DNA of 64,000 nt from Rhodovulum robiginosum (GTDB lineage: Bacteria > Pseudomonadota > Alphaproteobacteria > Rhodobacterales > Rhodobacteraceae), in assembly GCF_003944755.1 (NCBI RefSeq), contig NZ_RWGU01000042.1, positions 62,001 through 126,000 of the forward strand, given 5' to 3'. The position numbers were made by a program, and so were the translations under genes. The stretch's first letter is position 1; each line of letters begins with the position of its first letter. Positions 29,631 to 62,915 of the stretch are shown here, one piece after another. The notes beneath the pieces were generated by a model. The model was given only the letters and a program-made list of their open reading frames with translations, was not told where the DNA came from and made no database searches.

Positions 29631-29642
29631 TTGGTATACCAA
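29631..29642. promoter_or_regulatory. GntR operator site 1 (TTGGTATACCAA)
   Basis: This is a perfect 12-bp palindrome in the GntR-dctP divergent region, 72 bases upstream of the GntR start and 114 bases upstream of dctP. It matches the core of the known ExuR/UxuR operator. It is well placed for autoregulation. Confidence 0.8.
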
Positions 29643-29685
29643 AACCCGTTGATTGTCGAGGTGGCTTTCGCTAGCGTCTTGGCAG

Positions 29686-29699
29686 GATGGTATACCATC
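29686..29699. promoter_or_regulatory. GntR operator site 2 (GATGGTATACCATC)
   Basis: This 14-bp perfect palindrome lies 57-70 bases upstream of the dctP start. Its centre is about 56 bases from site 1, close to five helical turns, which would allow cooperative or looped repression of both divergent promoters. Confidence 0.8.
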
Positions 29700-29755
29700 T
29701 TGCGCAGGGAGGATGCGCAAACATTCGGGGGATAGGACCCCAAGGGAGGAGTAAT

Positions 29756-30769
29756 ATGAAGCTGAGATCGATTTTGAAGTCGGCTGCCATGGCCTCTGTC
29801 GCCGCGGTTCCGGCCATGGCGCAGGACGTGACGCTGCGCATCCAGACGCATTATGCCACCGAGCACCCGACCGGCCAGCGGCTGGCCCAGTGGATCGATG
29901 ACGTTCAGACCATGTCGGGCGGCGAAATCGCCATCGAGATGTTCTATTCGTCCTCGGTCGTGGCCACCACCGAAACCTTCGATGCCGCCATCAACGGCAT
30001 CGTCGATTGCGATGCCACCGGCGGCGCCTACCAGACCGGCAAGAACCCCGCCTTCCAGTTCGTTGGCGACATCATGGGCGGCTACGAGACGCCCTGGCAG
30101 CAGTATAGCTGGCTCTACCACGGCGGCGGCTACGACGCTGCGCAAGAGCTCTACAACGAGCAGAACATGCAGCTAATCGGCTGGTCGATCTACGGCCAGG
30201 AATCGCTGTCCTCGTCGAAGCCCATCGCCGGCATCGGAGACCTTGAAGGCTGGAAATTCCGTTCGCCCCCGGGCATGGAGACCGAGATTTTCGACGAACT
30301 CGGCGCCTCGCCCATCGTGATGGACTTCACCGAGATCTTCACCGCGCTGGAGACCGGCATCATCGACGGCGCCGACGCGAGCGGCCTGGCCAACAACGTG
30401 GGGCTCGGGCTTTACGACATCGTCAAGCACGCCACCTATCCCGGTTTCCACTCGATGCCGTCGGACCATCTGGCGTGCAACCTCGACGTCTGGAACGGGC
30501 TGAGCGAACAGCACCGCCGGATCATCGACACCGCCTGGCAAAAGCTGAGCTTCCAGATCGCGCTCTATAACGAGAAGGCCAACGCCGAAGCGGCGGCCGC
30601 GCTCAAGGAACAGGGTGTGACCCTCTACAACTGGTCGTCCGAGGACCGCGCCGAGTTCCGTCGCGCCGCCCAGGTGGCGTGGGAAGACTGGGGCACCCGC
30701 TCGCCCGAGGCCGCCGCGCTTCTGGAAAGCCACAAGACCTACCTTGAGCAACTGGGTCTGATCAACTGA
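29756..30769 (+). CDS. dctP: TRAP transporter substrate-binding protein DctP
   Basis: This 337-residue periplasmic binding protein has a signal peptide (residues 1-22, cleavage after AMA|QDV). It has the DctP family pattern: THYATEHPTGQRLAQWIDDV, GEIAIEMFYSSSV, the lobe hinge KPIAGIGDLEGWKFRSPPG with the conserved substrate-carboxylate arginine (R in KFRSPPG), TEIFTALETGIIDGADA and YPGFH. It should deliver an organic or sugar acid to DctQM. The ATG at 29756 follows GGGAGGAG. A terminator-like hairpin after the gene allows more binding protein than membrane components. Ligand is probably an acid sugar handled by the surrounding dehydratases. Confidence 0.92.
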   Translation: MKLRSILKSAAMASVAAVPAMAQDVTLRIQTHYATEHPTGQRLAQWIDDVQTMSGGEIAIEMFYSSSVVATTETFDAAINGIVDCDATGGAYQTGKNPAFQFVGDIMGGYETPWQQYSWLYHGGGYDAAQELYNEQNMQLIGWSIYGQESLSSSKPIAGIGDLEGWKFRSPPGMETEIFDELGASPIVMDFTEIFTALETGIIDGADASGLANNVGLGLYDIVKHATYPGFHSMPSDHLACNLDVWNGLSEQHRRIIDTAWQKLSFQIALYNEKANAEAAAALKEQGVTLYNWSSEDRAEFRRAAQVAWEDWGTRSPEAAALLESHKTYLEQLGLIN

Positions 30770-30782
30770 TCCCTCGGGCCTG

Positions 30783-30836
30783 ATGGCGAGCCTGTAACGG
30801 CTTCTGGCGGGTCCCTACCGGGGCTCGCCATTTTTT
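30783..30836 (+). terminator. Intrinsic terminator / attenuator between dctP and dctQ
   Basis: ATGGCGAGCC (30783-30792) pairs perfectly with GGCTCGCCAT (30822-30831) and is followed by a run of six T. The gap then continues to the dctQ ribosome site. Partial read-through would set a high DctP to DctQM ratio, as is usual for TRAP operons. Confidence 0.75.
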
Positions 30837-30866
30837 CAACTGCGGCAAGGTAGGGGGAGGCTGACG

Positions 30867-31676
30867 ATGCAAGATCGAAGCCTGTGGCTGGGCCCCATGA
30901 GGCAGCATGTAAAACTGGCGATGATCGCCTTTTGCGGCGTGACGGCGATCCTTTATGTCTGGCTGGTGGCCAACAAAATCATCGACGAGAACGCCATCGG
31001 CATGCACGAGATGATCCGCCCGACGGGCCGACCCATGGTCTGGGCCATGCTGATCTGCATCGCCGGCAGCCTGCTTTTCACTTCGCTCTACCTGTCCGAC
31101 ACCAAGGGCGACATCGAACCCGAGCCGGGCGGCTTTTTCGATGTCGTCTCGATGGTCTGCGGGCGGCTGGCGATGATCTCGGTCGCGCTGATCGTGCTGG
31201 TGATGTTTTACGAGGTGGTGTCGCGCTACGTCTTTTCGCGGCCCACGCTCTGGGCCAACGAGCTGTCGCTGTGGATCGCATCCTTCGTGTTCCTGCTGGC
31301 CGGGCAATACGCCATGCAGCAGCGCAGCCATATCCGCATCTACGTGATCTACGACATCATGCCCCGCTGGATGCAAAAGACGGCCGACGTGATCTCGGTT
31401 GGCCTGATTTGCGGCTTTTTCTTCGCGCTGGTCTGGGGCGGTTACAACGACGCGATGCGTCGAATGCTGAGGATGGAGACCTTCGGCACCGCATGGGATC
31501 CGCCGATCCCCGGCACGGTCAAGCCGGCGATCCTGTTCATCATCATGCTGGTGACGATCCAGGCGGTGTCGAACCTGATCGCCGACTGGAACAAGTTGCC
31601 CGAGCACCACAAGGGCATCGAGGATATCGACGAAACCGAAATCGAGAATATCCGCCGCGCGCTGGAGGAAAAATAA
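30867..31676 (+). CDS. dctQ: TRAP transporter small permease subunit DctQ (long form)
   Basis: This 269-residue membrane protein has six likely transmembrane segments. The four-helix DctQ core starts at about residue 97 (LAMISVALIVLVMFYEVVSRYVF) with the family segment TLWANELSLWIASFVFLLAGQYAM. The first 85 residues add two more helices (LAMIAFCGVTAILYVWLVAN and MVWAMLICIAGSLLFTSLYL), so the protein is about 90 residues longer than usual. It precedes dctM by 3 bases. It stabilises the transporter and interacts with DctP and DctM. Confidence 0.88.
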   Translation: MQDRSLWLGPMRQHVKLAMIAFCGVTAILYVWLVANKIIDENAIGMHEMIRPTGRPMVWAMLICIAGSLLFTSLYLSDTKGDIEPEPGGFFDVVSMVCGRLAMISVALIVLVMFYEVVSRYVFSRPTLWANELSLWIASFVFLLAGQYAMQQRSHIRIYVIYDIMPRWMQKTADVISVGLICGFFFALVWGGYNDAMRRMLRMETFGTAWDPPIPGTVKPAILFIIMLVTIQAVSNLIADWNKLPEHHKGIEDIDETEIENIRRALEEK

Positions 31677-31679
31677 GCC

Positions 31680-33275
31680 ATGGTCGATATCGGCACCCTG
31701 AGCCTCATCATCCTTCTGGCGATGTTTGCGCTCCTGGCGATCGGCATGCCGCTGGGCTTTGCCTCGGCCTTCCTTGCCTTCGTCACGCTGGCGCTGAAAT
31801 TCGACGCCAGCATCCTGTTTCGCGATTTCGGTCAGGGGCCGATGTCGGTGCTGGGCCAGGCGGTCTACCGTCAGATGACGAATTACGTCCTGATATCGGT
31901 ACCACTCTTCATATTCATGGCCGCGCTACTGGAGCGATCCGGAATCGCGCGCGACATGTACAGCTCGCTGAACGTTTGGTTGTCGCGCACGCGGGGCGGC
32001 ATCGCCATCGTCACCTCGATCATGGCCGTCATCATGGCCGCCATGTCGGGCATCATCGGCGGCGAGGTCGTGCTTCTGGGCCTGATCGCACTGCCGCAGA
32101 TGCTGCGGCTGGGCTATAACCAGAACCTTGCCATCGGCACGATCTGCGCCAGCGGCAGCCTCGGCACCATGATCCCGCCCTCGATCGTGCTGATCTTTTA
32201 CGGGCTGGTGACCGAGACCTCGATCAAGGCGCTGTTCACCGCCGCCTTCCTGCCCGGGTTCATGCTGGCCTCGTTCTTCCTGATCTACATCATCGTGCGC
32301 ACCCGGATGAACACCTCGCTCGCTCCCCTGCCCGAGGACGACCCGAACGACCCGCATGGCCGCGAAAAGGGGCTGATGTTCCTGGGCTTCCTGTCGCGCT
32401 TTACCATGTGGTTCACCGGCTTCCTGCTGCTCAGGGCGCTGTTCTTCACCGCGACCAGCACCAACACCGTGCGCGAGGGCGAAGACCCGATCGCACTCGG
32501 CATGGTCAGCGACATCCCCTGGATCATCGGCGCCTTCGCCATCGCCGCGCTGCTGGTCTACGTCGTGATCGGGCGCGAGCGCAGCGCGCGCGGCTGGGAG
32601 ATGGGCAAGGGCCTGATTGCCCCGATTGTCGTGATCGGCGTGGTTCTGGGTTCGATCTACATGGGGATCACCGGCATCACCGAGGCGGCCGGGATGGGCG
32701 TGGTCGCGGTCTTCGTCATCGGCATGATCCGGCGCGAGATGACGTTCGACATCGTCTGGGACAGCCTGTTGCGGACCCTGCGCTCGACCGGCACGATCAT
32801 CTGGGTGACGATCGGCGCCGCCTCGCTGGCCGCGGCCTACACGCTGGCGGGCGGGCCGACCTATGTCGCCAACCTGATCGTGGGGGCCGACCTGCCCACC
32901 ATGGGGATCATCCTGGTGATGATGCTGATCTTCCTGATCATGGGCATGTTCATGGACTGGATCGGCATCGTGCTGCTGATCATGCCGGTGTTCCTGCCCA
33001 TCGTGGTGCGCCTGCCCGCCGAGGAAATCGGCTGGCTCGGAACGGTCGATCCGCGCTTCATCCCGATCTGGTTCGGCGTGGTGTTCTGTATGAACATGCA
33101 GGTCAGCTTCCTGTCGCCGCCGTTCGGGCCCGCGGCCTTCTACCTCAAATCGGTGGCCCCGCCGCATATCACCCTGACGGCGATCTTCCGCGGCTTCCTG
33201 CCTTTCATCGTGCTGCAATTGATTGCGCTGTCGGTGCTGCTGACCTGGCCGCCGATCGTCACGCTGTTTCTCTAG
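31680..33275 (+). CDS. dctM: TRAP transporter large permease subunit DctM
   Basis: This 531-residue integral membrane protein has about 12-14 hydrophobic helices and the DctM signatures IGMPLGFASAFLAFVTL at the N-terminus, SVPLFIFMAALLERSGIARDMY, ICASGSLGTMIPPSIVLIFYG (conserved GT.IPPS region) and MDWIGIVLLIMPVFLPIV. A central insert of charged residues (DDPNDPHGREKG near residue 219) makes it longer than the typical 430 residues. It catalyses sodium-coupled import of the acid captured by DctP. Confidence 0.93.
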   Translation: MVDIGTLSLIILLAMFALLAIGMPLGFASAFLAFVTLALKFDASILFRDFGQGPMSVLGQAVYRQMTNYVLISVPLFIFMAALLERSGIARDMYSSLNVWLSRTRGGIAIVTSIMAVIMAAMSGIIGGEVVLLGLIALPQMLRLGYNQNLAIGTICASGSLGTMIPPSIVLIFYGLVTETSIKALFTAAFLPGFMLASFFLIYIIVRTRMNTSLAPLPEDDPNDPHGREKGLMFLGFLSRFTMWFTGFLLLRALFFTATSTNTVREGEDPIALGMVSDIPWIIGAFAIAALLVYVVIGRERSARGWEMGKGLIAPIVVIGVVLGSIYMGITGITEAAGMGVVAVFVIGMIRREMTFDIVWDSLLRTLRSTGTIIWVTIGAASLAAAYTLAGGPTYVANLIVGADLPTMGIILVMMLIFLIMGMFMDWIGIVLLIMPVFLPIVVRLPAEEIGWLGTVDPRFIPIWFGVVFCMNMQVSFLSPPFGPAAFYLKSVAPPHITLTAIFRGFLPFIVLQLIALSVLLTWPPIVTLFL

Positions 33276-33359: not shown

Positions 33360-34445
33360 ATGCCCCGCATCGACCGCCTGCACGCCGACCACTACCTGAT
33401 CGCCCTGCCCCGCACGCTGGAGGACAGCATGCACGGCACGATGACCGGCTTCGAGATCGTCACCGCGCGCATCACCGATAGCGACGGCGCCGAGGGCGTC
33501 GGCTACACCTTCACCTGTGGCGTCAATGGCGGCGCCATCGCCGACATCCTGGGCCGCGAGATGGCCCCGCGCGTCGCCGGCCGCGACCCCGACCTGATCG
33601 AGGCGATCTGGAAAGATCTCTGGTGGGCCTTCCATTACGGCGGGCGCGGCGGGCCCACGGTGCTGGCGCAATCGGCGCTGGATATCGCGCTGTGGGATCT
33701 CAAGTCGAAACGGGCCGGCCTGGCGCTCTGGCGCCTGCTGGGCGGCTACGACCCCCGCGTGCCCGCCTACGCCGGCGGCATCGACCTCGACCTCACCCCC
33801 GAGGAACTGGTCGCCCAGACCCACGACAACATCGAAAGGGGGCACCGCGCGATCAAGATCAAGGTCGGCCGCGACAGGCTGTCCGAAGACGTGGCCCGCA
33901 TGGCCGCGATGCGCGCGGAATTCGGCCCCGACCTGCCGCTGATGGCCGACGCCAACATGAAATACAGCGTCGACGGCGCCATCCGCGCCGCCCGCGCTTT
34001 CCGCGCGTTCGACCTTACATGGTTCGAGGAACCGATCCCGCCCGAAGATCCCGCCGGCCACCGCCGCATCCTCACCGAGGGCGGCATCCCCATCGCCTCG
34101 GGCGAGAACCTGCGCTCGCTTTGGGAGTTCCGCACCGCCATCGAGGGCGGCGTCAGCTTCCCCGAACCCGACGTCACCAATTGCGGCGGCGTCACCCCGT
34201 TCATGAAGATCGCCCGGCTGGCCGAGGCATACCACCTGCCGGTCACCAGCCACGGCGCCCACGACATCACCGTCCAGCTCCTGGCCGCCTGCCCCAACCG
34301 CTCCTACCTCGAGGCGCACGGCTTCGGGCTGGACTCCTATATCGACGAACCGCTTGCCATCGAAAACGGCCACGCCATCGCGCCCGATCGCCCCGGCCAT
34401 GGCGTCGCGTTCGACTGGGACAAACTTGAAAGCTGCCGGCCATGA
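33360..34445 (+). CDS. Mandelate racemase/muconate lactonizing enzyme family protein, probable acid-sugar dehydratase
   Basis: This 361-residue enolase-superfamily enzyme has a capping domain up to about residue 130, then the barrel with KxK (IKIKVGRD), metal ligands in MADANMKY, WFEEPI and ASGENL, the Asp of PDVTNCGG, and the catalytic His of TSHGAHDI. The KxK lysine plus His/Asp dyad is the mandelate-racemase subgroup arrangement used by sugar-acid dehydratases. It lies 84 bases after dctM, in the operon controlled by the paired GntR operators. The specific acid (hexarate, fuconate or other) is not determinable here. Confidence 0.87.
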   Translation: MPRIDRLHADHYLIALPRTLEDSMHGTMTGFEIVTARITDSDGAEGVGYTFTCGVNGGAIADILGREMAPRVAGRDPDLIEAIWKDLWWAFHYGGRGGPTVLAQSALDIALWDLKSKRAGLALWRLLGGYDPRVPAYAGGIDLDLTPEELVAQTHDNIERGHRAIKIKVGRDRLSEDVARMAAMRAEFGPDLPLMADANMKYSVDGAIRAARAFRAFDLTWFEEPIPPEDPAGHRRILTEGGIPIASGENLRSLWEFRTAIEGGVSFPEPDVTNCGGVTPFMKIARLAEAYHLPVTSHGAHDITVQLLAACPNRSYLEAHGFGLDSYIDEPLAIENGHAIAPDRPGHGVAFDWDKLESCRP

Positions 34446-35395
34446 CCCTGTTTCTCAGCCCCGACCAGATCGAAGAGTTCTCCACAACCGGCGTGCTCGT
34501 GGTCGACGACGTTCTGCCCGCGGCCACGCTCGCCGCGGTTCGCGCCGAATACGCCGGCCTGCTCGACCGGCTTTACGCGGGCTGGCAGGCCGAAGGCCGC
34601 GTGCCGCCCGCAGCGGCCGGGGCGGATTTCTTCGAAAAGCTGCTCACCGCCTATGCCGCGGGCGTCGACTGGTTCCAGCCGATGGACATCTCGCTACCGG
34701 GCGGCGAGATCGCGGCCGACACCCCGTTTCATTTCGGCCCGGCGGTGTTCGACATGCTCACCGCGCCCCGGCTGCTCGACCTGGTCGAAGACCTGATCGG
34801 CCCCGAGATCACCGCGAACCCGATCCAGCATGTCCGCCTCAAGCCGCCCTCCCGCACCCTCAGGGCCACCGAGACCACCGCCCATATCATGGCCACCGAC
34901 TGGCACCAGGACCGCGCCGTCGCCCATGAAGCCGGCGACCGGACCACGATGGTCACCGTCTGGCTGGCGATCACAGATGCCAGCGAGGACAACGGCTGCC
35001 TCCAGGTCATCCCGGGCAAGCCGCGCATGTACCCCCATTGCCCCCGCCGCCAGACCTCCATCGCCGAGGGCTGCATCGACCCCGCCCTCGCCCGGCCCCT
35101 GCCGGTCAAGGCGGGCGGCGCGGTGATCTTCCACCCGCTCACGCCGCATGCCTCGCTCGACAATGTCTCCGACCGCTTCCGCTGCTCCTTCGACATCCGC
35201 TACAACGTCACCGGCCAGCCCACCGGCCGCGCCCATTTCCCCGATTTCGTCGCCCGCTCGCGCGCCGCCCCCGGCGCCGAGTTCCGCGACTGGCAGGCCT
35301 GGCGCGACATGTGGCGCGCCGCGCGCGCGCGCCTCTCCGGCCAGCCCCATATCCCGATCCATCGCTGGACGGGCGACAGCCCCGCCTGTGCCTGA
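34442..35395 (+). CDS. Phytanoyl-CoA dioxygenase family protein
   Basis: This 317-residue Fe(II)/2-oxoglutarate dioxygenase-like protein has the facial-triad HxD in ATDWHQDRAVAHE (near residue 156) and the distal His in FHPLTPHASLDNVSDRFRCSFDIRY, with the 2-oxoglutarate-binding Arg nearby. The start ATG overlaps the dehydratase stop (ATGA), so it is co-translated in a sugar-acid operon where no oxygenase step is known. A second PhyH protein is encoded at 47992-48882. A role in removing methyl or ether groups from modified sugar acids is speculation. Confidence 0.87.
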   Translation: MTLFLSPDQIEEFSTTGVLVVDDVLPAATLAAVRAEYAGLLDRLYAGWQAEGRVPPAAAGADFFEKLLTAYAAGVDWFQPMDISLPGGEIAADTPFHFGPAVFDMLTAPRLLDLVEDLIGPEITANPIQHVRLKPPSRTLRATETTAHIMATDWHQDRAVAHEAGDRTTMVTVWLAITDASEDNGCLQVIPGKPRMYPHCPRRQTSIAEGCIDPALARPLPVKAGGAVIFHPLTPHASLDNVSDRFRCSFDIRYNVTGQPTGRAHFPDFVARSRAAPGAEFRDWQAWRDMWRAARARLSGQPHIPIHRWTGDSPACA

Positions 35396-35426
35396 CCCAC
35401 ACCGCCGCCCCCGACAAACGCCCCCC

Positions 35427-35482
35427 GCTTCTTCTGGCCGAAAATATCCCGGGGGAGCGCGCAGCGCGGGGGCAGAGCCCCC
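35427..35482. repeat. Interspersed GC-hairpin repeat, copy 3
   Basis: GCTTCTTCTGGCCGAAAATA, then TCCCGGGGG, an 11-bp insert GCGCGCAGCGC-type segment, and the hairpin GGGGGC-AGA-GCCCCC. It ends two bases before the AAAGGA ribosome site of the UxaA-family gene, so the repeat hairpin is part of that gene's leader. Confidence 0.85.
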
Positions 35483-35501
35483 GAAAGGACCCGACCTCGC
35501 C

Positions 35502-36992
35502 ATGCAGACCGTCCGCCTCTCCGACGCCGACAACGTCGTCACCGCGCTTGCGCCGCTTGCCCTGGGCGAGGACGGCGCCGCCCAGCCGATCCCCCGCGGC
35601 CACAAGATGGCCAGCGCGCCGATCGCCAAGGGCGCGCCGGTGGTGAAATACGCCCAGCGCATCGGCTACGCCGCCGAGGACATCGCGCCCGGCGCCCATG
35701 TCCACACCCACAATCTCGACTTTCGCAACGTCGATACCGCGTACGAATTCGGCACCAACCTGCGGCCCGCCGCCCCGGCGGCCGAGGCCGACACCTTCAT
35801 GGGGTACCGCCGCCCCTCGGGCCGGGTCGGCACGCGCAACTACATCGCGGTGCTGACCTCGGTGAACTGCTCGGCCACCGCCGCGCGGATGATCGCGTCG
35901 CATTTCACCGACGACGTGCTCGCCCCCTACCCCGATGTCGACGGCGTTGTGGCCTTCGTCCATGGCACCGGCTGCGCCATGGGCGGCGACGGCACCGGGT
36001 TCGAGGCGCTGCAGCGCGTGCTCTGGGGCTACGCGCGCAACCCCAATGTGGGCGGGGTGCTGATGGCGGGGCTGGGCTGCGAGATGATGCAGATCGACTG
36101 GCTGATCGAGGCCCACGGGCTGACACCGGGGCCGCTGTTCCAGACCATGAACATCCAGGACGTGGGCGGGCTGCGAAAAACCGTCGAACTGGGCATCGCC
36201 AAGATCGAGGCGATGCTGCCCAGGGTGAACGCTGCGCAGCGCGAGCCCTGCCCGGCCTCCGCGCTGACCGTGGCGCTGCAATGCGGTGGCTCGGACGCCT
36301 GGTCGGGGATCACCGCGAACCCGGCCCTGGGCCATGCCTGCGACCTGCTGGTCGCCCAGGGCGGCACCGGCGTGCTGGCCGAGACGCCCGAGATCTACGG
36401 CGCCGAGCACCTGCTGACCGCCCGCGCCGCCAGCCGCGACATCGGCGACAAGCTGATCGGCCTGATCCGCTGGTGGGAGGACTACACAGAGCGCAACCGC
36501 GGCAGCATGGACAACAACCCCTCGCCGGGAAACAAGCAGGGGGGGCTGACCACGATACTGGAGAAATCGCTGGGCGCGGCGGCCAAGGGCGGCACCACGC
36601 CGTTGATGGGCGTCTACAAATACGCCGAACCCATCGACACGACCGGCTTCGTCTTCATGGACAGCCCTGGCTACGACCCGGCCTCGGTCACCGGGCAGAT
36701 CGCATCCGGGTGCACCCTCGTGGCCTTCACCACCGGGCGCGGCTCGGCCTTCGGGGCCAAGCCTTCGCCCTCGATGAAGATCGCCACCAATACCGAGATG
36801 TACGAGCGGCTGACCGACGACATGGATATCGACGCCGGCCGCATCCTGACCGGCCGCGCCACGATCGAGGAGGTCGGGCGCGAGATCTATCGGATGTGGC
36901 TGCGGATGGCCTCGGGCGACAGGTCGAAATCCGAGGCGCAGGGTCTGGGCGACTACGAATTCGTCCCGTGGCAGATCGGGGCGGTGATGTGA
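35502..36992 (+). CDS. UxaA/GarD family hydrolyase (altronate or galactarate dehydratase-like)
   Basis: This 496-residue protein has an N-terminal SAF domain (residues 1-90, PIPRGHKMASAPIAKGAPVVKYAQ) and the large UxaA catalytic domain with GYRRPSGRVGTRNYIAVLTSVNCSA, FVHGTGCAMGGDG, GLGCEM, QCGGSDAWSGITANPALG and DNNPSPGNKQGGLTTILEKSLGA. Cysteines in NCSA, GCAM, GCEM and QCGGSD suit the iron centre of this family. Reactions are dehydration of D-altronate, galactarate or related aldonates to 2-keto-3-deoxy acids. Start ATG 35502 follows AAAGGA. The next gene overlaps by 4 bases. Confidence 0.9.
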   Translation: MQTVRLSDADNVVTALAPLALGEDGAAQPIPRGHKMASAPIAKGAPVVKYAQRIGYAAEDIAPGAHVHTHNLDFRNVDTAYEFGTNLRPAAPAAEADTFMGYRRPSGRVGTRNYIAVLTSVNCSATAARMIASHFTDDVLAPYPDVDGVVAFVHGTGCAMGGDGTGFEALQRVLWGYARNPNVGGVLMAGLGCEMMQIDWLIEAHGLTPGPLFQTMNIQDVGGLRKTVELGIAKIEAMLPRVNAAQREPCPASALTVALQCGGSDAWSGITANPALGHACDLLVAQGGTGVLAETPEIYGAEHLLTARAASRDIGDKLIGLIRWWEDYTERNRGSMDNNPSPGNKQGGLTTILEKSLGAAAKGGTTPLMGVYKYAEPIDTTGFVFMDSPGYDPASVTGQIASGCTLVAFTTGRGSAFGAKPSPSMKIATNTEMYERLTDDMDIDAGRILTGRATIEEVGREIYRMWLRMASGDRSKSEAQGLGDYEFVPWQIGAVM

Positions 36993-38053: not shown

Positions 38054-38065
38054 CAGGAGGATGAC

Positions 38066-54961: not shown

Positions 54962-55884
54962 CGGGCGGGCGGTTCCTTTCCATCGGCGAGATCATGGTCG
55001 AGATGGCCCCCGCCGATGGCGGGCTTTTCGCCATGGGGTTTGCCGGGGACACGTTCAACACCGCGTGGTACGCGCGCCGCGTGCTGCCCGCCGACTGGCA
55101 GGTCGGCTATTTCACCGCCATCGGCACCGATGCCGTGTCCGACGACATGGCCGCCTTCATGGCGCGCGAGGGCATCGACACGGCGGCCGTGCGCCGGGTG
55201 CCGGACCGCACCGTGGGGCTTTACATGATCCAGCTCAAGCGCGGCGAGCGCAGCTTTTCCTACTGGCGCGGGCAGTCGGCGGCAAAGACGCTGGCCGATG
55301 ACACCGGCGCGCTGGGCGCGGCGCTGGCGGGGGTGGATATCGTGCATTTCTCGGGGATCACGCTGGCCATCCTCAGCGCGCCGGCGCGCCAGGCCTTTTG
55401 CGCCGCGCTGGCCCGGGCGCGCGCGGCGGGCAGCCACATCGCCTTCGATACCAACCTGCGCCCGCGCCTCTGGCCCGGGGCCGAGGCGATGCGCGACGGG
55501 CTGATGCAAGGCGCGGCGGTGGCCGACACGGTGCTGCCCTCGCTCGACGAAGAGGCGCTGGCCTTCGGCGATGCGACGGCCCAGGATACCATCGCGCGCT
55601 ACCGCGCCGCGGGGGCCTCGACGGTGGCGGTCAAGAACGGGGCCGAGACCTGCCATGTCTGGTCGGCCGACGAGGGCGCGTTTTCGGCCGACCCGCCCGA
55701 AGTGGCGCGCATCGTCGACAGCACGGCGGCCGGCGACAGCTTTGCGGCCGCGTTTCTGGCAGCCCGCGCCGAGGGCGCCGCGGTGCAGGACGCGGCCGCC
55801 CGCGCAACGGCACTGGCCGCGCAAGTGGTGCAACGGCGCGGCGCGCTGGCACCTGAAATCTTTGAAAAGGGAGGAACGTCATGA
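54958..55884 (+). CDS. kdgK: 2-dehydro-3-deoxygluconokinase (PfkB family sugar kinase)
   Basis: This 308-residue ribokinase-family enzyme begins FLSIGEIMVEMAP, has GFAGDTFNTAWYARR (substrate region), YWRGQSAAKTL, FDTNLRPRLW, LPSLDEEAL and the PfkB signature 2 DSTAAGDSFAAAFLAAR with the catalytic aspartate. It phosphorylates 2-keto-3-deoxygluconate for Entner-Doudoroff cleavage. GTG at 54958 overlaps the XylX-like stop (GTGA), and the denD gene overlaps its own stop, so expression is tightly coupled. Confidence 0.9.
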   Translation: MTGGRFLSIGEIMVEMAPADGGLFAMGFAGDTFNTAWYARRVLPADWQVGYFTAIGTDAVSDDMAAFMAREGIDTAAVRRVPDRTVGLYMIQLKRGERSFSYWRGQSAAKTLADDTGALGAALAGVDIVHFSGITLAILSAPARQAFCAALARARAAGSHIAFDTNLRPRLWPGAEAMRDGLMQGAAVADTVLPSLDEEALAFGDATAQDTIARYRAAGASTVAVKNGAETCHVWSADEGAFSADPPEVARIVDSTAAGDSFAAAFLAARAEGAAVQDAAARATALAAQVVQRRGALAPEIFEKGGTS

Positions 55885-56840
55885 AGGTTCTGATCATCGG
55901 GGGCGGCGGGCTTGTCGGGCAAAAACTGGGCAAGGCGCTGGCCGCGCGCGGCACGCTGAGGGGCGTGCCGATCGATACCCTGGTCCTGGCGGACGTGGTC
56001 GACCCGCCGCTCTTCGAGGCGCCCTTCAAGCTGGAGACCGCGCGATGCGACATCGCCGACCCGGCCTCGGTCGCCGCCGCTGTCGACGCCGACACCGACG
56101 TGATCTACCTGCTGGCCGCCATCGTTTCGGCCCATGCCGAGGAAGACCTCGACGCGGGGCTGAGGATCAACATGATGGGCACGCTCAACGTGCTGCAACG
56201 CTGCCGCGAACTGGGCTCCAAACCGGTGCTGGTCTTCACCTCGTCAATCGCCGTCAACGGCGGCGAGGTGCCCCAGCCCTATACCGATTTCACCGCCCTC
56301 AACCCGCAAACCTCCTACGGCGCGCAAAAGGCCATCGGCGAGTTGCTGGTCAACGATTTCTCGCGCCGCGGGCTGATCGACGGGCGCGGGTTCCGCCTGC
56401 CCACGATCTCGGTCCGGCCGGGCAAGCCGAACCGCGCGGCCTCGGCCTTCATGTCGTCGATCTTTCGTGAGCCGCTGCAGGGGCAAAACGCCAATTGCCC
56501 GGTGGACCCCGATTTCAACCACTACTACCTGAGCCCACGCAAATGCGTCGAAAACCTCGTCAAGGGGGCCGAGCTGCGCGCCGAGGACCTGGGCCTGAAC
56601 CGCTGCATGCCGATGCCCGGCCGGGTCTGGACGATTGCCCAGATGATCGAGGCCATGACCGCCGTGGCCGGGCCCGAACCCGCCAAGCTGATCACCTGGG
56701 AGAAGCAGCCGGAACTGGAGCCTATCCTGAAGGGGTGGCGCATGGAGATCCACGCCGACAAGGCCGAGCGGCTGGGGCTGGAGGCCGATGCAAGCTTCGA
56801 GGACAATATCCGGTATTTCCTCGAGGACGATCTGGGCTGA
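55881..56840 (+). CDS. denD: D-erythronate dehydrogenase-like NAD-dependent epimerase/dehydratase family protein
   Basis: This 319-residue extended SDR has the Rossmann motif IIGGGGLVGQKLGKALAARGTL (residues 5-26), DIADPASV, YLLAAIVSAHAEEDLDAGLRINMMGTLNVL, FTSSIAVNGG and the catalytic TSYGAQKAIGELLVNDFSRRG, then RLPTISVRPGKPNRAASAF. This matches the DenD type, which oxidises D-erythronate to 2-oxo-tetronate at the start of tetronate catabolism. The remaining pathway genes (otnI, otnC, otnK, ltnD) are 2.4 kb downstream on the other strand. ATGA overlaps kdgK; GGAGGAACGTC precedes the start. Confidence 0.85.
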   Translation: MKVLIIGGGGLVGQKLGKALAARGTLRGVPIDTLVLADVVDPPLFEAPFKLETARCDIADPASVAAAVDADTDVIYLLAAIVSAHAEEDLDAGLRINMMGTLNVLQRCRELGSKPVLVFTSSIAVNGGEVPQPYTDFTALNPQTSYGAQKAIGELLVNDFSRRGLIDGRGFRLPTISVRPGKPNRAASAFMSSIFREPLQGQNANCPVDPDFNHYYLSPRKCVENLVKGAELRAEDLGLNRCMPMPGRVWTIAQMIEAMTAVAGPEPAKLITWEKQPELEPILKGWRMEIHADKAERLGLEADASFEDNIRYFLEDDLG

Positions 56841-56944: not shown

Positions 56945-57892
56945 TCAGTTGACCGGCGTCAGCAGTTCCCGCCCGTCGAGGAACGCCCGGATGTTGTCGA
57001 GCTGGAGCACGGCCATCGCCCGGCGCGTCTCGACCGAGCCCGAGCCCTGGTGCGGCTGAAGCACCACGTTGTCGAGCGCAAGGAAGCGCGGGTCGATATC
57101 AGGCTCGTTCAGGAACACGTCGAGCCCCGCCCCGGCGATCTTGCCCTGTTCCAGCGCGTCCAGCAGCGCGCCCTCGTCGACCGTGGTGCCGCGCGAGATG
57201 TTGATCAGCACGCCGCGCGGCCCCAGCGCCTCGATGGCGGCGCGGCTGACATAGCCCTCGGTCGCGGGACCGCCCACCAGTGCCACGAAGAGGAAATCGA
57301 CCGCCTCGGCCAGCGCGACGACATCGTCGTGATAGGTCCAGCCCGGCGTCGGCTTTTCGGATCGGGCGTGATAGTGGATGTCCATCTTGAAGGCCGCCAG
57401 CCGGTCGGCGATCTCGCGCCCGATCCGGCCCAGGCCGACGATCCCGGCGGTGTTGCCGGTGACCTTCCGGTTGAGCGGTATCTCACCTTCCCGCGCCCAG
57501 GCGCCCGAGCGCACATGGGCCTCGCCATTGCGCATGGTGCGGCATTGGGCGATCAGCATGGCGACGGCCAGATCGGCGACGTCGTCGTTGAGCACGTTCG
57601 GCGTGTTGGTGACCTTGACCCCCCGTTCGGTGGCGGCGGCCACGTCGATGGCGTCATAGCCCACGCCGTAATTGGCGATCACCCCGAGATTGGGAAAGAG
57701 GTCCATCTCGGCACCCGACATCTGCGCGTGACCCTTGAAGGCGATGGCGCGGATGCCGTCGCGCGCGGCCGGGTCGAGACCGGCCATGGCGTCGGGCCCG
57801 TCGACATGCAGCGACGGATAGGCCGAGGCCAGCCGGCCGCGCTCTTCCGCGTTGAGGCTGGCACCTGAGGTGAGAAGGATCGCATCTGCCAT
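56945..57892 (-). CDS. D-isomer-specific 2-hydroxyacid dehydrogenase (GhrB-like)
   Basis: This 315-residue NAD(P)-dependent dehydrogenase has VIANYGVGYDAIDVAAATERGVKVTNTPNVLNDDVADLA (residues 90-128), the Rossmann loop GIVGLGRIGREIADRLAAF (169-187), FVALVGGPATEGYVSRAAI with the substrate arginine region, NISRGTTVDEGAL and the catalytic His in VLQPHQGSGSVETR. It reduces glyoxylate, hydroxypyruvate or a 2-keto-sugar acid. It is the second gene after the aminotransferase, 20 bases apart, under GntR operator 5. Confidence 0.9.
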   Translation of the reverse strand: MADAILLTSGASLNAEERGRLASAYPSLHVDGPDAMAGLDPAARDGIRAIAFKGHAQMSGAEMDLFPNLGVIANYGVGYDAIDVAAATERGVKVTNTPNVLNDDVADLAVAMLIAQCRTMRNGEAHVRSGAWAREGEIPLNRKVTGNTAGIVGLGRIGREIADRLAAFKMDIHYHARSEKPTPGWTYHDDVVALAEAVDFLFVALVGGPATEGYVSRAAIEALGPRGVLINISRGTTVDEGALLDALEQGKIAGAGLDVFLNEPDIDPRFLALDNVVLQPHQGSGSVETRRAMAVLQLDNIRAFLDGRELLTPVN

Positions 57893-57912
57893 TTCAAATA
57901 CCTTTCAGCGGT

Positions 57913-59082
57913 TTAGAGAAGCTTTCGAATGCGCGACAGCGCTTCGAGGATATTCTCGGTCGAGTTGGCATAGGAAAACCGCAGATAGCCCTCGCCCCAG
58001 GCACCGAAGGAGGTGCCCGCCACGGTGGCCACGCCCGCCTCGTCGAGAAACCGGTCCTGCGCCTCTTTCGCGCGCATCCCCGTGCCCTCGATGTTCGGAA
58101 AGGCATAGAACGCGCCGGCCGCGTCGGCGCAGCGCACACCGGGCAGCGCGTTCAGTTCGCGCACGATCGCCGCGCGCCGGGCGTCGAACTGGGCCACCAT
58201 CTGGCGCACCGCGTCCTGTGGGCCGTTTAAGGCCGCGATTCCAGCATATTGCGTAGCGGCGTTCACGCATGAATGGTCGTTGATGCACAGCCGCGTGACG
58301 TGGTCGACGCACGCGTCGGGCCAGACCGCATAGCCCAGACGCCAGCCGGTCATGGCGTAGGTCTTGGACCAGCCGTCCAGCATGATGAGACGGTCCCGAA
58401 TGTCGGGATACTGCAAGAGGCTGACATGCTCTCGCCCGTCGTAAAGCATGTTGGAATAGATCTCGTCGGACATCAGCGCCACCTGCGGATGCGCCGCCAG
58501 CCCTTCGACCAGCTTGTCGATTTCCGCGCGCGGGGTGACGCCGCCGGTGGGGTTGGCGGGCGAATTGATGATGATCAGCCGTGTCGCATCGGTGATCTGC
58601 CCCAGCACCTCCTCGGCGGAAAAGGCAAAGCCGTTTTCCTCGCGCAGGGCGATGGGCACGGGCGTGGCGCCGGAATAGCGGATGACCGATTCGTAAATCG
58701 GAAAACCCGGGTTGGGATACATGACCTCGGCCCCGGGTTCGCCGAACATCAGCACCGCGAAAAACATGGTCGGCTTGCCGCCGGGCACCACGACCACGTT
58801 GTCGGGATTGACCTCGACCCCGTGCCGGCGGTTGAGGTCGGCCGCCACCGCCTCGCGCAGGGCGGGGATACCGTTGGCGGGCGTATAGCCGTGGTGGCCG
58901 TCGCGCAGCGCCTTGATGCCGGCCTCGACGATATGCTCAGGCGTTTTGAAATCGGGCTGGCCGATGCCGAGATTGATGATGTCGCGGCCCTGCGCGGCCA
59001 GGGCTTGCGCGCGGGCAAGAACGACGAAGGCGGATTCGGTGCCGAGCCGCGACAGGCTTTCGGCGAAGTGCAGGTTCGGCAT
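57913..59082 (-). CDS. Pyridoxal phosphate-dependent aminotransferase (class I/II)
   Basis: This 389-residue fold-type I aminotransferase has INLGIGQPDFKTPEHI (residues 36-51), HGYTPANGIPALREAVA, VVVPGGKPTMFFAVLMFGEPGAEV, NSPANPTGG (PLP asparagine), MSDEIYSNMLYDG, the Schiff-base lysine in LDGWSKTYAMTGWRLGY and a C-terminal carboxylate-binding RFSYANS. It is of the aspartate/alanine aminotransferase branch. In this setting it could use glyoxylate, hydroxypyruvate or a keto-sugar acid as acceptor. The ATG at 59082 has GGGAGGGGG. GntR operator 5 lies 46-55 bases upstream. Confidence 0.9.
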   Translation of the reverse strand: MPNLHFAESLSRLGTESAFVVLARAQALAAQGRDIINLGIGQPDFKTPEHIVEAGIKALRDGHHGYTPANGIPALREAVAADLNRRHGVEVNPDNVVVVPGGKPTMFFAVLMFGEPGAEVMYPNPGFPIYESVIRYSGATPVPIALREENGFAFSAEEVLGQITDATRLIIINSPANPTGGVTPRAEIDKLVEGLAAHPQVALMSDEIYSNMLYDGREHVSLLQYPDIRDRLIMLDGWSKTYAMTGWRLGYAVWPDACVDHVTRLCINDHSCVNAATQYAGIAALNGPQDAVRQMVAQFDARRAAIVRELNALPGVRCADAAGAFYAFPNIEGTGMRAKEAQDRFLDEAGVATVAGTSFGAWGEGYLRFSYANSTENILEALSRIRKLL

Positions 59083-59127: not shown

Positions 59128-59137
59128 TGGTATACCA
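59128..59137. promoter_or_regulatory. GntR operator site 5 (TGGTATACCA)
   Basis: A perfect 10-bp core extended to TTGGTATACCAA (59127-59138) lies 46 bases upstream of the aminotransferase start. It is downstream of the otn operon, so it should control only the aminotransferase and 2-hydroxyacid dehydrogenase pair. Confidence 0.78.
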
Positions 59138-59234: not shown

Positions 59235-59996
59235 TTACCGAAAGCTCGCCAGCCACCCCAGGCTGTCGTCCGTTGGGCCGGTGGGCTTGTATTCCGCCCC
59301 CAGCGGCGCCATCCAGCCCAGCCCCTCGATCACTTCGAAGACATGGGCGAAGCTGACCTCGCCATGGTCGGGCGCGCCCCGGTCGGGGACCGAGGCAAAC
59401 TGGATATGGCCGATAAGCGGCAAGAGCGCCTGCAATCTGTGGGTCAGATCGCCCTCCATGAGTTGCACATGGTAGCAGTCGAACATCAGCTTCAGGTTCG
59501 GTGCCCCCGCCGCCTCGATCAGCCCGCGCGCCTGGTCGGTGGTGGTCAGGAAATAGCCCGGCGCGTCGTAGCGGTTGAGCGGCTCGATCAGGATCGACAT
59601 GCCGTGGGGCGCGGCGGCGGCGCAGGCATGGCGCAGGTTGGCGAGAAACACCGCCTCGGCCTCGGGCCCCTCGGCAAAGCCCGCCATGACATGCACCTTT
59701 CCGGCCCCGATGTCGCGGCCATAGGCGATGGCCTCGTCGATGGACGCGCGCGCGTCGGCCTCGCGCCCCGGCAAGGCCGCGAGACCGTTTTCCCCCGCCT
59801 CAACGTCGCCGCGCACCGTGTTCAGCCCCAGCATGGGCAGGCCGGTCTCGTTCAGCGCGGCCTTCACCTCGGCGGCGGGCACGGCGTAGGGCCAGTGGCA
59901 TTCGACCGCGTCAAAGCCCGCTTTCGCGGCCGCGCGGATGGCATCGGGCAACGGCCGATCGGCCCAGAGAAACCCCAGATTGGCGGAAAATTTCAT
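59235..59996 (-). CDS. otnI: 2-oxo-tetronate isomerase (hydroxypyruvate isomerase family)
   Basis: This 253-residue sugar-isomerase TIM barrel of the Hyi/OtnI type has KFSANLGFLWADRPLPDAIRAAAKAGFDAVECHWPY (residues 2-37), ILIEPLNRYDAPGYFLTTT (metal Glu), LMFDCYHVQLMEGDL (metal Asp/His), HIQFASVPDRGAPDHGEV and GAEYKPTG (metal Glu). It interconverts 2-oxo- and 3-oxo-tetronate. The ATG overlaps the otnC stop (ATGA), and it is the last gene of the ltnD-otnK-otnC-otnI operon, an order that supports the tetronate rather than the glyoxylate-carboligase context. Confidence 0.9.
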   Translation of the reverse strand: MKFSANLGFLWADRPLPDAIRAAAKAGFDAVECHWPYAVPAAEVKAALNETGLPMLGLNTVRGDVEAGENGLAALPGREADARASIDEAIAYGRDIGAGKVHVMAGFAEGPEAEAVFLANLRHACAAAAPHGMSILIEPLNRYDAPGYFLTTTDQARGLIEAAGAPNLKLMFDCYHVQLMEGDLTHRLQALLPLIGHIQFASVPDRGAPDHGEVSFAHVFEVIEGLGWMAPLGAEYKPTGPTDDSLGWLASFR

Positions 59997-60643
59997 CCGT
60001 CCCACTCGATGTCGAATCTCTTTGCCACGGCGGAAACCTGGTCGTCGGACAGGGCCCGCGCCCCGGCCCCGCGCGTCAGCAGCGCCAGACGGGCCGTCGC
60101 CTCCATCTCTTCCACCGCGTTGCAGGCGGCCTCGACGTCGCGGCCGGCCACCACCGGCCCGTGATTGGCCAGCATCACCGCGCTGCGCTTGCCCGCAAGG
60201 CCGCGCACGGCCTCGCCCATGGCCGGGTCGCCAGGCAGAAAGAATGGCAAGAGCTTGACCCGCCCGAGCTGCATGATGGCGTAGGGGGTGAAGGGGGGCA
60301 GGAAATCGTCCTCGTCCGCCTCGGGCATCATCGACCACGCGACCGAGTGGCGGGAATGCAGGTGCACCACCGCGCCCGCCGTGCTGCGCGTGTCGTAAAA
60401 CGCGGTGTGCAGCGGCATCTCCTTGGTGGGCTTGTCGCCGTCCACATGGGCGCCCGACGCGTCGAACCGGCTGAGGCGGCCCGGGTCGAGCCGGCCGAAG
60501 CTGGTGCCCGTGGGCGAGACCAGAAGACCGCCGTCGGCGGTGCGCGCCGAGATGTTGCCGGTCGAGCCATGGGTCAGCCCCCGCTCGAAGAGCGACCTGG
60601 CCAGCAGGCAGAGCCGCTCGCGCAGGCGGGTTTCCTCGCTCAT
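59993..60643 (-). CDS. otnC: 3-oxo-tetronate 4-phosphate decarboxylase (class II aldolase/adducin family)
   Basis: This 216-residue class II aldolase-fold protein has GLTHGSTGNISARTADGGLLVSPTGTSFGRLDP (residues 22-54), LHTAFYDTRSTAGAVVHLHSRHSVAWSMM with the zinc histidines (HLHSRH) and the third His in MLANHGPVVAG. In the tetronate pathway it decarboxylates 3-oxo-tetronate 4-phosphate to dihydroxyacetone phosphate. It is translationally coupled to otnK upstream and otnI downstream (both ATGA). The open frame extends upstream, but the ATG at 60643 is where homology starts. Confidence 0.9.
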   Translation of the reverse strand: MSEETRLRERLCLLARSLFERGLTHGSTGNISARTADGGLLVSPTGTSFGRLDPGRLSRFDASGAHVDGDKPTKEMPLHTAFYDTRSTAGAVVHLHSRHSVAWSMMPEADEDDFLPPFTPYAIMQLGRVKLLPFFLPGDPAMGEAVRGLAGKRSAVMLANHGPVVAGRDVEAACNAVEEMEATARLALLTRGAGARALSDDQVSAVAKRFDIEWDG

Positions 60644-61908
60644 TCCGCCTCCAGCCGTGACAGGGCGTCGGCAAAAAACGTCTCGGCGCCGAAATTGCCC
60701 GATTTCAGCGCCAGCGCCAGCCGCGCCCCGGCGCTGTCGCAATAAGTCCAGGGCACGCCGGGGGCGATCTCGGCCCCGATATCGAGGCGCGTCACCCCCA
60801 GTGCCTGGGTCACCGCGCCCGAGCTTTCGCCGCCGGCCACGACGAAGCGCCGCGCGCCGCGGTCGCGGGCAGCGACCGCCAGCCGCGCGAGCGCCGCCTC
60901 GACGACCTCGCCCGCACGCACCGTCCCCAGCGTCTCTTGCGCCGCGCGCACCTCTTCGGGGTCCGCGGTGGCGTAGATCAGCGGCGCCGCCTCGAGGGAT
61001 TGCTTTTCCAGCCAGTCAAGCGCCGCGCCCGGCCCCTCTTGCGCCAGCCCGACGGGGTCCAGCCGGAAGTTGGGCGCGGACTGCGCGTAAAGGGCGACCT
61101 GCGCGCGGGTCATGGCCGAGCAACTGCCCGACAGCACGATGGCGCCGGGGCCAAGCGCGGCCGGCGCGGGGCGGGCGGCGGGGGGCGCAAGCGCCCCGGC
61201 GCGGATCAATAGCCCCGGCAGCGGCATCGCAACCGCGCTGCCCCCGGTCATCAGCGGCATGTCGCGGCAGGCCTCGGCGATGACCGCGAGGTCGTCGTCG
61301 GCCACCGCGTCGACCACCACATGGGCCACGCCCTCGTCCGCCAGCCGCGCCAGTTCCGCCTTCAGCGCCGGGGCACCCCTGGCCACGGTCAGCCGGTCGG
61401 CCAGCCCGACCGCCCGCGTGACCTGCGGCTGCAACAGGCGCATCAGGTTCGAGTCGCGCATCGGCGTCAGCGGGTGATCCTTCATCGGGCTCTCGGCCAG
61501 GGGCTGGCGCCCGACGAAGAGATACCCCATGAAGATCGCCCGCCCGTTCTCGGGGAAGGCCGGGCAATAGATGGTCTGGGCGGTGCCCAGGTCCTGCATC
61601 AGGGCCTCGGCCACCGGGCCGATATTGCCTTGGTCCGTGGAATCGAAGGTCGAGCAGTATTTCCAGAAAAACCGCTCGGCGCCCGCTTGCCGCAGCCAGC
61701 CCAGCGCGGCGCGGCAGGACGCGACGGCCTCGGCCACCGGCGCGGTGCGGCATTTCAGGGCGATCACCTCGAACGGCGCCGTGTCGCGGGGCGGGCCATC
61801 GGGCACCCCGATGCGCAGCGAGACAGGCACGCCGCTGCGCGCCAGCAGGCCGGCAAGGTCGGTCGCCCCGGTAAAATCATCGGCGATGGCACCCAGCAGC
61901 GTGGCCAT
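60640..61908 (-). CDS. otnK: 3-oxo-tetronate kinase (DUF1537 four-carbon acid sugar kinase)
   Basis: This 422-residue DUF1537 kinase has the N-terminal GAIADDFTGATDLAGLLARSG (residues 6-26), FFWKYCSTFDSTDQGNIGPVAEAL, the CPAFPENGRAIFMGYLFV segment and LAESPMKDHPLTPMRDSNL. The C-terminal ATP domain has VLSGSCSAMTRAQV, VVAGGESSGAVTQAL and LKSGNFGAETFF. It phosphorylates 3-oxo-tetronate. It is 4 bases from the ltnD stop and overlaps otnC by 4 bases. It is clearly distinct from the apionate-type DUF1537 kinase at 19960. Confidence 0.92.
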   Translation of the reverse strand: MATLLGAIADDFTGATDLAGLLARSGVPVSLRIGVPDGPPRDTAPFEVIALKCRTAPVAEAVASCRAALGWLRQAGAERFFWKYCSTFDSTDQGNIGPVAEALMQDLGTAQTIYCPAFPENGRAIFMGYLFVGRQPLAESPMKDHPLTPMRDSNLMRLLQPQVTRAVGLADRLTVARGAPALKAELARLADEGVAHVVVDAVADDDLAVIAEACRDMPLMTGGSAVAMPLPGLLIRAGALAPPAARPAPAALGPGAIVLSGSCSAMTRAQVALYAQSAPNFRLDPVGLAQEGPGAALDWLEKQSLEAAPLIYATADPEEVRAAQETLGTVRAGEVVEAALARLAVAARDRGARRFVVAGGESSGAVTQALGVTRLDIGAEIAPGVPWTYCDSAGARLALALKSGNFGAETFFADALSRLEAE

Positions 61909-61912
61909 GGGG

Positions 61913-62815
61913 CTACCCCTCGCCCGGCAGCGTCAGCCCCGCGTTGCGGGCATAGATCTTCGTCACCGCCGCGTCGTCCTGCTGCCCCAGCCCCGTGCCC
62001 GAGGCGGCGACGAATTGCTGAAGCGCGGCGGCGACCAGCGGCGCGCTGAATTTCGAGGCGCGGGCGATGTCGGAGACGATGCCCAGGTCCTTCAGCCAGA
62101 TATCGACAGCGCTGAGCGGGGTGTAATCGCCCGCCACCACATGCGGCGCGCGGTTTTCCAGCACCCAGCTGGTGCCCGCGCATTTCGGAATGACCTCTAG
62201 GAACTGCTCGGGGCTGACGCCCTGGGTCATGCCGAAGGTCAGCGCCTCGCCCATGGCCGCCAGCTGCACCCCCACCAAAAGCTGGTTGACCGCCTTCATC
62301 GCCGAGCCGGGCCCGGCCGCGTCGCCCAGCGCGAATACCGTGGCCGCCATCGCGTCGAGAACCGGGCGCGCCTTGGCAAAGGCCGCGGGCGCGCCCGCAG
62401 CCATGACCGCCAGCGAGCCGTCGGCCGCGCGGACCTGCCCGCCCGAGATCGGCGCATCGAGATAGAGAAGCCCCGCCTCGGTGCAGCGCGCCTCCATCCG
62501 GCGGGCAAAATCGGGGGCCACCGTGGCGCAGCTGACGATCACCGTGCCGGGGTCGAGATGCGCGGCGATGCCGGCCTCGCCGAACAGCACCGCCTCGGTC
62601 TGGGCCGCGTTCACCACGACCACCACCACGACGTCGCGGCCGGCATAGTCGTCCGGCCCCTCGATCACGCCGCCGCCCGCCTCGCGGAAACGGGCGCAGG
62701 GCTCGGGGCTCACATCGGCACCCATCGTGTCGATGCCTGCGCGCAGCAGCGACGTGGCCACGCCGTAGCCCATCGAGCCCAGGCCGATCACGGCCGCTTT
62801 GGTTGCGTCGGTCAT
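61913..62815 (-). CDS. ltnD: L-threonate dehydrogenase (beta-hydroxyacid dehydrogenase family)
   Basis: This 300-residue GarR-like enzyme has AAVIGLGSMGYGVATSLLRAG (residues 6-26), the canonical substrate motif LDAPISGGQVRAADGSL, catalytic Lys in SAMKAVNQLL and TPLSAVDIWLKDLGIV. In the LtnD role it oxidises L-threonate to 2-oxo-tetronate for OtnI. The ATG at 62815 was preferred to the ATG two codons upstream because AGGGAGG then has normal 6-base spacing. It is the first gene of the otn operon, with GntR operator 6 about 90 bases upstream. Confidence 0.9.
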   Translation of the reverse strand: MTDATKAAVIGLGSMGYGVATSLLRAGIDTMGADVSPEPCARFREAGGGVIEGPDDYAGRDVVVVVVVNAAQTEAVLFGEAGIAAHLDPGTVIVSCATVAPDFARRMEARCTEAGLLYLDAPISGGQVRAADGSLAVMAAGAPAAFAKARPVLDAMAATVFALGDAAGPGSAMKAVNQLLVGVQLAAMGEALTFGMTQGVSPEQFLEVIPKCAGTSWVLENRAPHVVAGDYTPLSAVDIWLKDLGIVSDIARASKFSAPLVAAALQQFVAASGTGLGQQDDAAVTKIYARNAGLTLPGEG

Positions 62816-62905
62816 CCTCATCCTCCCTGGTTCGCCGCCGGGCCGCCGTCTTGCGCGCCGGTTCCCGTCCAGACCGCATCGAGTCGTAGCATGGCGGCCG
62901 AGAAA

Positions 62906-62915
62906 TGGTATACCA
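62906..62915. promoter_or_regulatory. GntR operator site 6 (TGGTATACCA)
   Basis: A perfect 10-bp core in the divergent gap lies 91 bases from the ltnD start and 39 bases from the start of the KDA-dehydratase-like gene. It would couple the tetronate operon and the pentonate step to the GntR regulator. Confidence 0.78.

Follow-up and report, generated by a model that had tools for sequence, protein, structure and literature searches.

A single GntR-family regulator with an FCD domain very probably controls the sugar-acid gene island that occupies much of a 64-kb window of the Rhodovulum robiginosum genome (positions 62001-126000 of contig C1). Six copies of the palindrome TGGTATACCA would be the operators at which this GntR represses its own gene, a tripartite ATP-independent periplasmic (TRAP) transporter operon and the sugar-acid operons of the island until an effector releases it, two of the copies bracketing the predicted dctP promoter. 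Control of the island by one FCD-type GntR through these palindromes, first proposed in a preliminary description of the window, is strongly supported because the sites co-occur with the regulator, lie at orthologous promoters even where these are unlinked from gntR, and are absent from such promoters where a close orthologue of the regulator is missing. What the sequences show directly is that the sites exist, that they are exclusive to the island, that orthologous promoters conserve them and that they depend on the regulator gene.

The palindrome in the window and in the genome

Scanning the window recovered exactly the six cores first described, at 29632, 29688, 45707, 50753, 59128 and 62906, while 100 shuffles of the window contained a mean of 0.00 copies. 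The preliminary description had seen no copy within genes or outside the island and had proposed a genome-wide scan. In the whole genome (3,712,677 bases, or 3.71 Mb, in 51 contigs; 99.97% complete) we found these 6 exact copies, all within the 33-kb island, and a single copy of a reversed control pattern. It is the exact core that stands out, since one-mismatch copies show no surplus genome-wide (34, the six exact ones counted in, vs 42 for the reversed control). Within the window, only TGGTAGACCA at 40603 differs from the core by one mismatch; it was rejected as an operator, as it is coding (gene 40563-41357) and TGGTN1-3ACCA is absent from the same gene in the two relatives checked. Further degenerate operators were sought in the window with a matrix made of 72 distinct sites from the regions of relatives, which holds exact cores only and is consequently blind to divergent cores; the six sites score 25.4-34.1 bits and all else 3.4 or less. 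The flanks of these 72 sites exhibit three A/T-rich positions on each side and no conservation farther out.

In site order, the perfect palindrome extends over 14, 14, 16, 18, 12 and 10 bp (range 10-18), such that the 12-18 bp initially reported hold for five sites and fail for the one at 62906 (10 bp). With unmodified open reading frame (ORF) calls, 4 of the 6 sites are intergenic; those at 50753 and 62906 overlap the first codons of ORFs whose called starts are 50752 and 62891, respectively. Each of the two has another in-frame ATG further on (50806 and 62954, respectively), preceded by a GGAG-type ribosome site, and once these starts are adopted all six sites are intergenic. With these starts, the claim that every copy sits in a promoter gap is borne out, the genome-wide count adding that 6 of 6 copies lie in gaps of the island.

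The regulator

The gntR product matches the Pfam families GntR (59.3 bits) and FCD (88.9 bits), both over the gathering cut-offs, and its AlphaFold model (predicted local distance difference test score 91.9) has Foldseek matches to FCD GntRs such as 7u5q, 9isw and Atu1419 VanR. Residues D129, H133, H177 and H199, which we take to be the FCD Asp/His metal site, are invariant in the GntR alignment. That exactly one FCD GntR gene is present holds for the island and fails for the genome, which encodes seven. The initial assignment to an ExuR/UxuR type did not withstand closer analysis either. The protein scores 38.5 bits with the UxuR equivalog of NCBIfam (cut-off 442) and 38 bits with that of ExuR (cut-off 396), far under both cut-offs, and the spacing between GT and AC in TGGTATACCA is 2 nucleotides (nt), that of the UxuR/HypR/PrpR group and not the 3 nt of ExuR. 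Judging from its sequence, the island GntR is no orthologue of ExuR or UxuR. The palindrome does fit the operators of the FadR subfamily as characterized in the accessible text of PMC4494728, namely palindromes with TKGT and ACMA boxes and 2-3 nt between GT and AC, the 2-nt spacing being given there for GntR, HpxS, HypR, MdcY, PrpR and UxuR and the 3-nt spacing for ExuR.

A predicted promoter between probable twin operators

Two copies of the palindrome, O1 and O2, lie 72 and 128 bp upstream of gntR. Operators at their own promoter are common among FCD GntR regulators. The two copies at the gntR promoter are as the preliminary description had them, and the autoregulation that it read from them would be consistent with their positions. 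They also face dctP, the start of which is most probably at 29756. Between the twin operators, TTGATTGTCGA followed by a TAGCGT-like box is kept in most relatives, and these boxes are predicted to form the dctP promoter (Table 1) on the basis of conservation and reading by eye; a generic sigma-70 scan returned no promoter in the gntR//dctP gap. Twin-operator spacing is 55-58 bp in 20 of the 21 two-copy loci among the named loci (the best 80 of at least 588 relatives, partially overlapping with the family sample described below) and 38 bp in the remaining one; in the family sample it is 55-57 bp in 10 of 12 two-copy loci, the others showing 23 and 93 bp. Such a fixed spacing of 55-58 bp would arise because one promoter of set size sits between both operators, its -35 box closely preceded by O1 and its -10 box closely followed by O2.

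Alternatively, the regulator could be an activator or have a dual role, O1 activating dctP and O2 only tuning its expression. We regard this as unlikely, even though O1 immediately precedes the predicted -35 box, where an activator could bind. O2 is located just after the predicted -10 box, as repression would have it, and at the predicted idn promoter the operator is found downstream of a TTGACA box in 11 of the 14 aligned rows, read by eye. In a similarly read alignment of the ilvD-like promoter, the site overlaps a possible -10 box. The operator positions at these three predicted promoters favour repression by the island GntR.

The operator core at 45707-45716 reads TGGTATACC on both strands and, by eye, could double as an extended -10 box for both divergent promoters.

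Regulator and sites across genomes

Our family sample consists of 149 genomes, R. robiginosum counted in. A GntR match at an E-value threshold of 1e-40 is present in 28 of them, 21 of which (R. robiginosum included) reach at least 47% identity and are hereafter termed bearers. Bearers contain on average 5.1 exact sites (control 1.6), while the seven genomes with a match at 39-44% contain 1.4 (1.1) and the 121 without a match 0.85 (1.8). Three or more sites occur in 20 of 21 bearers vs 9 of the 121 genomes devoid of a match. Among the best 80 of at least 588 relatives, the 350 bp upstream of gntR contain a site in 27/35 loci with a regulator at 53% identity or above, in 3/14 at 43-50% and in 0/31 below 40%; the corresponding counts for any site in the locus are 33/35, 11/14 and 0/31. 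Altogether, these 80 loci hold 90 exact sites vs one reversed control. The wing of the DNA-binding domain also differs, reading LRPxRSP in all 21 bearer-group proteins vs YxxTRRP in all 8 of the 39-44% group; the recognition helix separates both groups only in part. This wing difference is consistent with a changed operator.

Could a different regulator, for example one of the six other FCD GntRs of the genome, bind the palindromes, the island gntR being merely linked to them? The tracking of regulator and sites was examined for the island gntR among the seven FCD genes, and in two genomes without a GntR match at the above threshold, G136 and G063, exact sites nevertheless number 7 and 5 (vs 2 and 3 for the control), which suggests that another regulator may use the palindrome there. 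Against this explanation, the number of sites follows the orthologue group of the island GntR, a site is found 45-144 bp upstream of gntR itself in 18/21 bearers, and the relatives below 40% identity are site-less in every locus. We thus consider it improbable that a regulator other than the island GntR is responsible.

Sites at orthologous promoters

To count sites at orthologous promoters, we combined genome-wide site lists with orthologue positions and retained exact sites within 250 bp upstream, R. robiginosum included. Besides gntR, the ilvD-like orthologue (at least 81% identity) is preceded by an exact site in 17 of 18 bearers, the idnO-like orthologue in 13 of 17 and the aminotransferase orthologue (at least 80% identity) in 7 of 10. 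Of the 12 relatives with the best coverage, 6 have ltnD in their fetched regions, and a site lies upstream of ltnD in four (G024, G070, G099, G006) of the six relatives whose fetched regions contain it. Gene order in two genomes suggests that one operator may serve both the ilvD-like gene and idnO: the former lies within the idnO run in G137, and idnO lies 0.8 kb behind it on the same strand in G023.

The sites also accompany target genes unlinked from the regulator. In G110, about 100 kb of a single contig separate two clusters; G137 has a second cluster located mid-contig and apart from gntR, and G097 an aminotransferase gene with its own site on a different contig. Genes are on separate contigs in G005 and G027 as well, but an assembly break is possible there. 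Conversely, 19 stretches that hold the promoters of these genes in genomes lacking a close orthologue of the regulator (11 of 11 ilvD-like matches at 78% or above, 6 of 7 aminotransferase matches at 80% or above and 2 of 35 idnO-like matches) contain zero sites at 0-1 mismatch, three of them having a 2-mismatch match; G014 and G134, which are among these genomes, encode a GntR at 39-44%. It is hardly credible that the palindromes are a repeat, a mobile element or chance copies in AT-rich gaps, because identical 10-bp cores do recur in several gaps but the flanks in relatives are unconserved past the three A/T-rich positions, the genome has zero further copies and each site is conserved at its own orthologous promoter.

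Several points weigh against control of all these promoters by the GntR orthologues, in addition to the two site-rich genomes mentioned above. The 47% line was drawn after the data had been seen, and related genomes are non-independent events. Two loci, L120 and L137, hold the regulator at 61 and 56% identity with zero sites in 20 kb. In three of the 21 bearers (G088, G086, G023), the 300 bp preceding gntR contain no match even with two mismatches allowed, and the three exact sites of G088 are on contigs other than that of its gntR. The ltnD site is missing in G002 and G039, the aminotransferase site in G070, G024 and G056, and the idnO site in G026, G045 and G112. Finally, the aminotransferase count omits G005, G045, G110 and G137 (homologues at 64-69%), all without a listed site beside the gene, and the ilvD-like count omits G088 and G045 (56-63%) and G041 (no match).

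Several bearers (e.g., G026, G056, G097, G099, G070) also possess sites away from island-type genes, which may be chance occurrences or additional targets. One such possible target is an extra exact site with A/T flanks at L085:7873 (contig 9 of G070), upstream of an ORF which by eye resembles shikimate dehydrogenase and is 32% identical to window gene 14288-15145.

A model for the regulon

We propose that a GntR dimer binds TGGTATACCA at the six sites, which are distributed over five promoter regions. Bound GntR would repress gntR, the TRAP operon and the flanking sugar-acid operons, which amounts to 34 genes out of the 36 called from 27996 to 63871, provided that every same-strand run downstream of an operator forms a single operon. 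A sugar-acid carboxylate accommodated in the FCD pocket would then release GntR from DNA. Direct binding, repression, operon structure and the effector belong to the inferred part of this model.

A bolder proposal would be that the 34 genes, instead of being several routes that share a switch, constitute one connected, undescribed sugar-acid pathway, fed by a single substrate that the TRAP transporter imports and that is broken down to the sole effector of GntR. A variant would see in them a route dealing with a whole family of C4-C6 oxidation products, such as those of ascorbate or 2-keto-aldonates. Taken jointly, these two versions appear doubtful to us. We identified no ascorbate enzyme, and a link between ascorbate, L-threonate and L-idonate, which we looked for in the literature, remains speculation.

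Gene content of the island

Table 1. Regulator, operators and gene runs of the island (window coordinates).
Feature	Coordinates	Strand	Remarks
gntR	28888..29559	-	FCD-type GntR regulator, 223 aa; GntR winged helix-turn-helix and FCD domain
Operator O1	29632..29641	.	Ends 7 nt before predicted dctP -35 box; 72 bp from gntR start
Predicted dctP promoter	29649..29677	+	TTGATT, 17 nt, TAGCGT, between O1 and O2; conserved in relatives
Operator O2	29688..29697	.	Begins 10 nt after predicted dctP -10 box
Operator	45707..45716	.	Between IlvD/Edd dehydratase gene (-) and 45762 gene (+)
Operator	50753..50762	.	Between idnO-like (-) and idnD-like (+)
Operator	59128..59137	.	Upstream of aminotransferase/2-hydroxyacid dehydrogenase pair (-)
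Operator	62906..62915	.	Between ltnD (-) and L-2-keto-3-deoxyarabonate dehydratase-like gene (+)
FAH-family hydrolase	27996..28841	-	Downstream of gntR; Pfam FAA_hydrolase 244 bits
TRAP transporter dctP, dctQ, dctM	29756..33275	+	Pfam DctP, DctQ, DctM
Seven more genes of dctP run	33360..40575	+	Enolase-superfamily, PhyH, galactarate/altronate-dehydratase family, Gfo/Idh, two dehydrogenases, EamA transporter (Pfam)
IlvD/Edd sugar-acid dehydratase and short-chain dehydrogenase/reductase (SDR)	43093..45648	-	PRK13017 subfamily 986 bits (cut-off 684)
Small protein, AzlC, AzlD, RraA-like	45762..47982	+	Pfam; small protein without family match
idnO-like SDR, 3-hydroxyisobutyrate-dehydrogenase-like, PhyH	47992..50684	-	Domain scans
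idnD-like dehydrogenase, LysE, GlcD-like, FAH-type dehydratase, PfkB kinase, D-erythronate dehydrogenase	50806..56840	+	
Aminotransferase and D-2-hydroxyacid dehydrogenase	56945..59082	-	Pfam
L-threonate module: otnI-like, otnC, otnK, ltnD	59235..62815	-	NCBIfam scores
L-2-keto-3-deoxyarabonate dehydratase-like (DHDPS family)	62954..63871	+	345 bits to 3fkk and 7c0c, translated from 62963

The FAH-family hydrolase gene adjoins gntR in 8 of the 9 relatives compared, and the TRAP transporter is present in the fetched regions of 15/20 relatives. Gaps in the dctP run do not exceed 107 bp, which suggests an operon. The IlvD/Edd dehydratase has as its nearest solved chain 5oyn (868.6 bits), presumably D-xylonate dehydratase. 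Among the genes for tetronate metabolism, the products LtnD (405.9 bits, cut-off 350), OtnK (533.1, cut-off 350), OtnC (284.9, cut-off 250) and D-erythronate dehydrogenase (DenD; ErythonDh, 377.9, cut-off 325) are all over the curated cut-offs and OtnI is under its own (274.3, cut-off 325).

Other names for island genes had to be weakened. The idnD-like protein (338.6 bits) falls under the cut-off for L-idonate 5-dehydrogenase (469) and the idnO-like protein under that for gluconate 5-dehydrogenase. Curated cut-offs also exceed the scores of the PfkB kinase, when taken as KdgK, and of the galactarate-dehydratase relative. The protein labelled LprI-like matches no Pfam or NCBIfam family. The hexuronate route is not supported: an Azf-like SDR scores 114 bits (cut-off 400) and is operator-less, and the Pfam families to which we assume UxaC, UxuA and UxuB belong are absent from the 40 proteins scanned. 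This SDR gene (40563-41357) and a second enolase-superfamily gene (41423-42550), which share a site-less divergent promoter, are the two island genes without an operator.

Among 20 relatives, only 4 and 3, respectively, have these two genes in their fetched regions, as if they were a later insertion. Two PhyH-family dioxygenase genes, 34442-35395 and 47992-48882, belong to separate operator-led runs.

Significance

The regulon constitutes a well-supported new example of FCD-type GntR regulons, whose main interest lies in its breadth and promoter arrangement. It provides a Rhodobacteraceae regulon whose operator is sharp and testable, whose regulator is defined and whose list of targets is conserved, and in which one TRAP transporter is connected with dehydratase, pentonate, idonate-like and tetronate genes. 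Growth and expression tests with C4-C6 sugar acids could consequently assign several of the enzymes together. The bracketed promoter and the wing that distinguishes the regulator from its 39-44% relatives ease the testing of operator specificity in FCD regulators. Searching the literature by titles and beginnings of abstracts, with subscription papers and RegPrecise outside the search, we found nothing on the motif in connection with GntR or, among the papers listed, on the regulon, and TTGGTATACCAA alone gave unrelated matches only.

Comparison with known systems

The closest parallel in regulatory terms is provided by the FadR/FCD regulons with 2-nt spacing outlined in the accessible text of PMC4494728, which share with the island an FCD GntR and, as operator, a TGGT/ACCA palindrome in which GT and AC are 2 nt apart. 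They differ in that the UxuR equivalog score is far under the cut-off here and that the targets are a TRAP transporter and C4-C6 sugar-acid genes. A GntR regulator termed UxuR has been predicted for sugar-acid catabolism in the same family, Rhodobacteraceae, and is associated, in the portion of PMC5507952 available to us, with an ABC transporter and UxaC, whereas the island encodes a TRAP transporter and the 40 proteins scanned show no UxaC family.

Loci for L-gulonate use with a TRAP transporter are described from H. influenzae (PMC5788505) and, with a GntR regulator as well, from Halomonas and Chromohalobacter (PMC5507952), as far as the accessible parts of both papers extend. Like these loci, the island combines TRAP uptake, dehydrogenase/reductase steps on aldonates and a 2-keto-3-deoxygluconate-type kinase. 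The H. influenzae pathway, however, consists of five enzymes, tetronate and pentonate genes being unmentioned in the accessible text. The lgn cluster for L-gluconate of Paracoccus laeviglucosivorans 43P, in the accessible text of PMC12632266, resembles the island in its epimerisation by a dehydrogenase/reductase pair followed by dehydratase, kinase and aldolase. Unlike the island, it is placed under LgnR, a protein of the IclR family, and we rejected the island as an lgn-type member for that reason. Finally, the L-threonate/D-erythronate pathway as defined in NCBIfam (LtnD, OtnK, OtnC, OtnI, DenD) is represented in the island by the four proteins over the curated cut-offs, but here it forms one module in a larger regulon.

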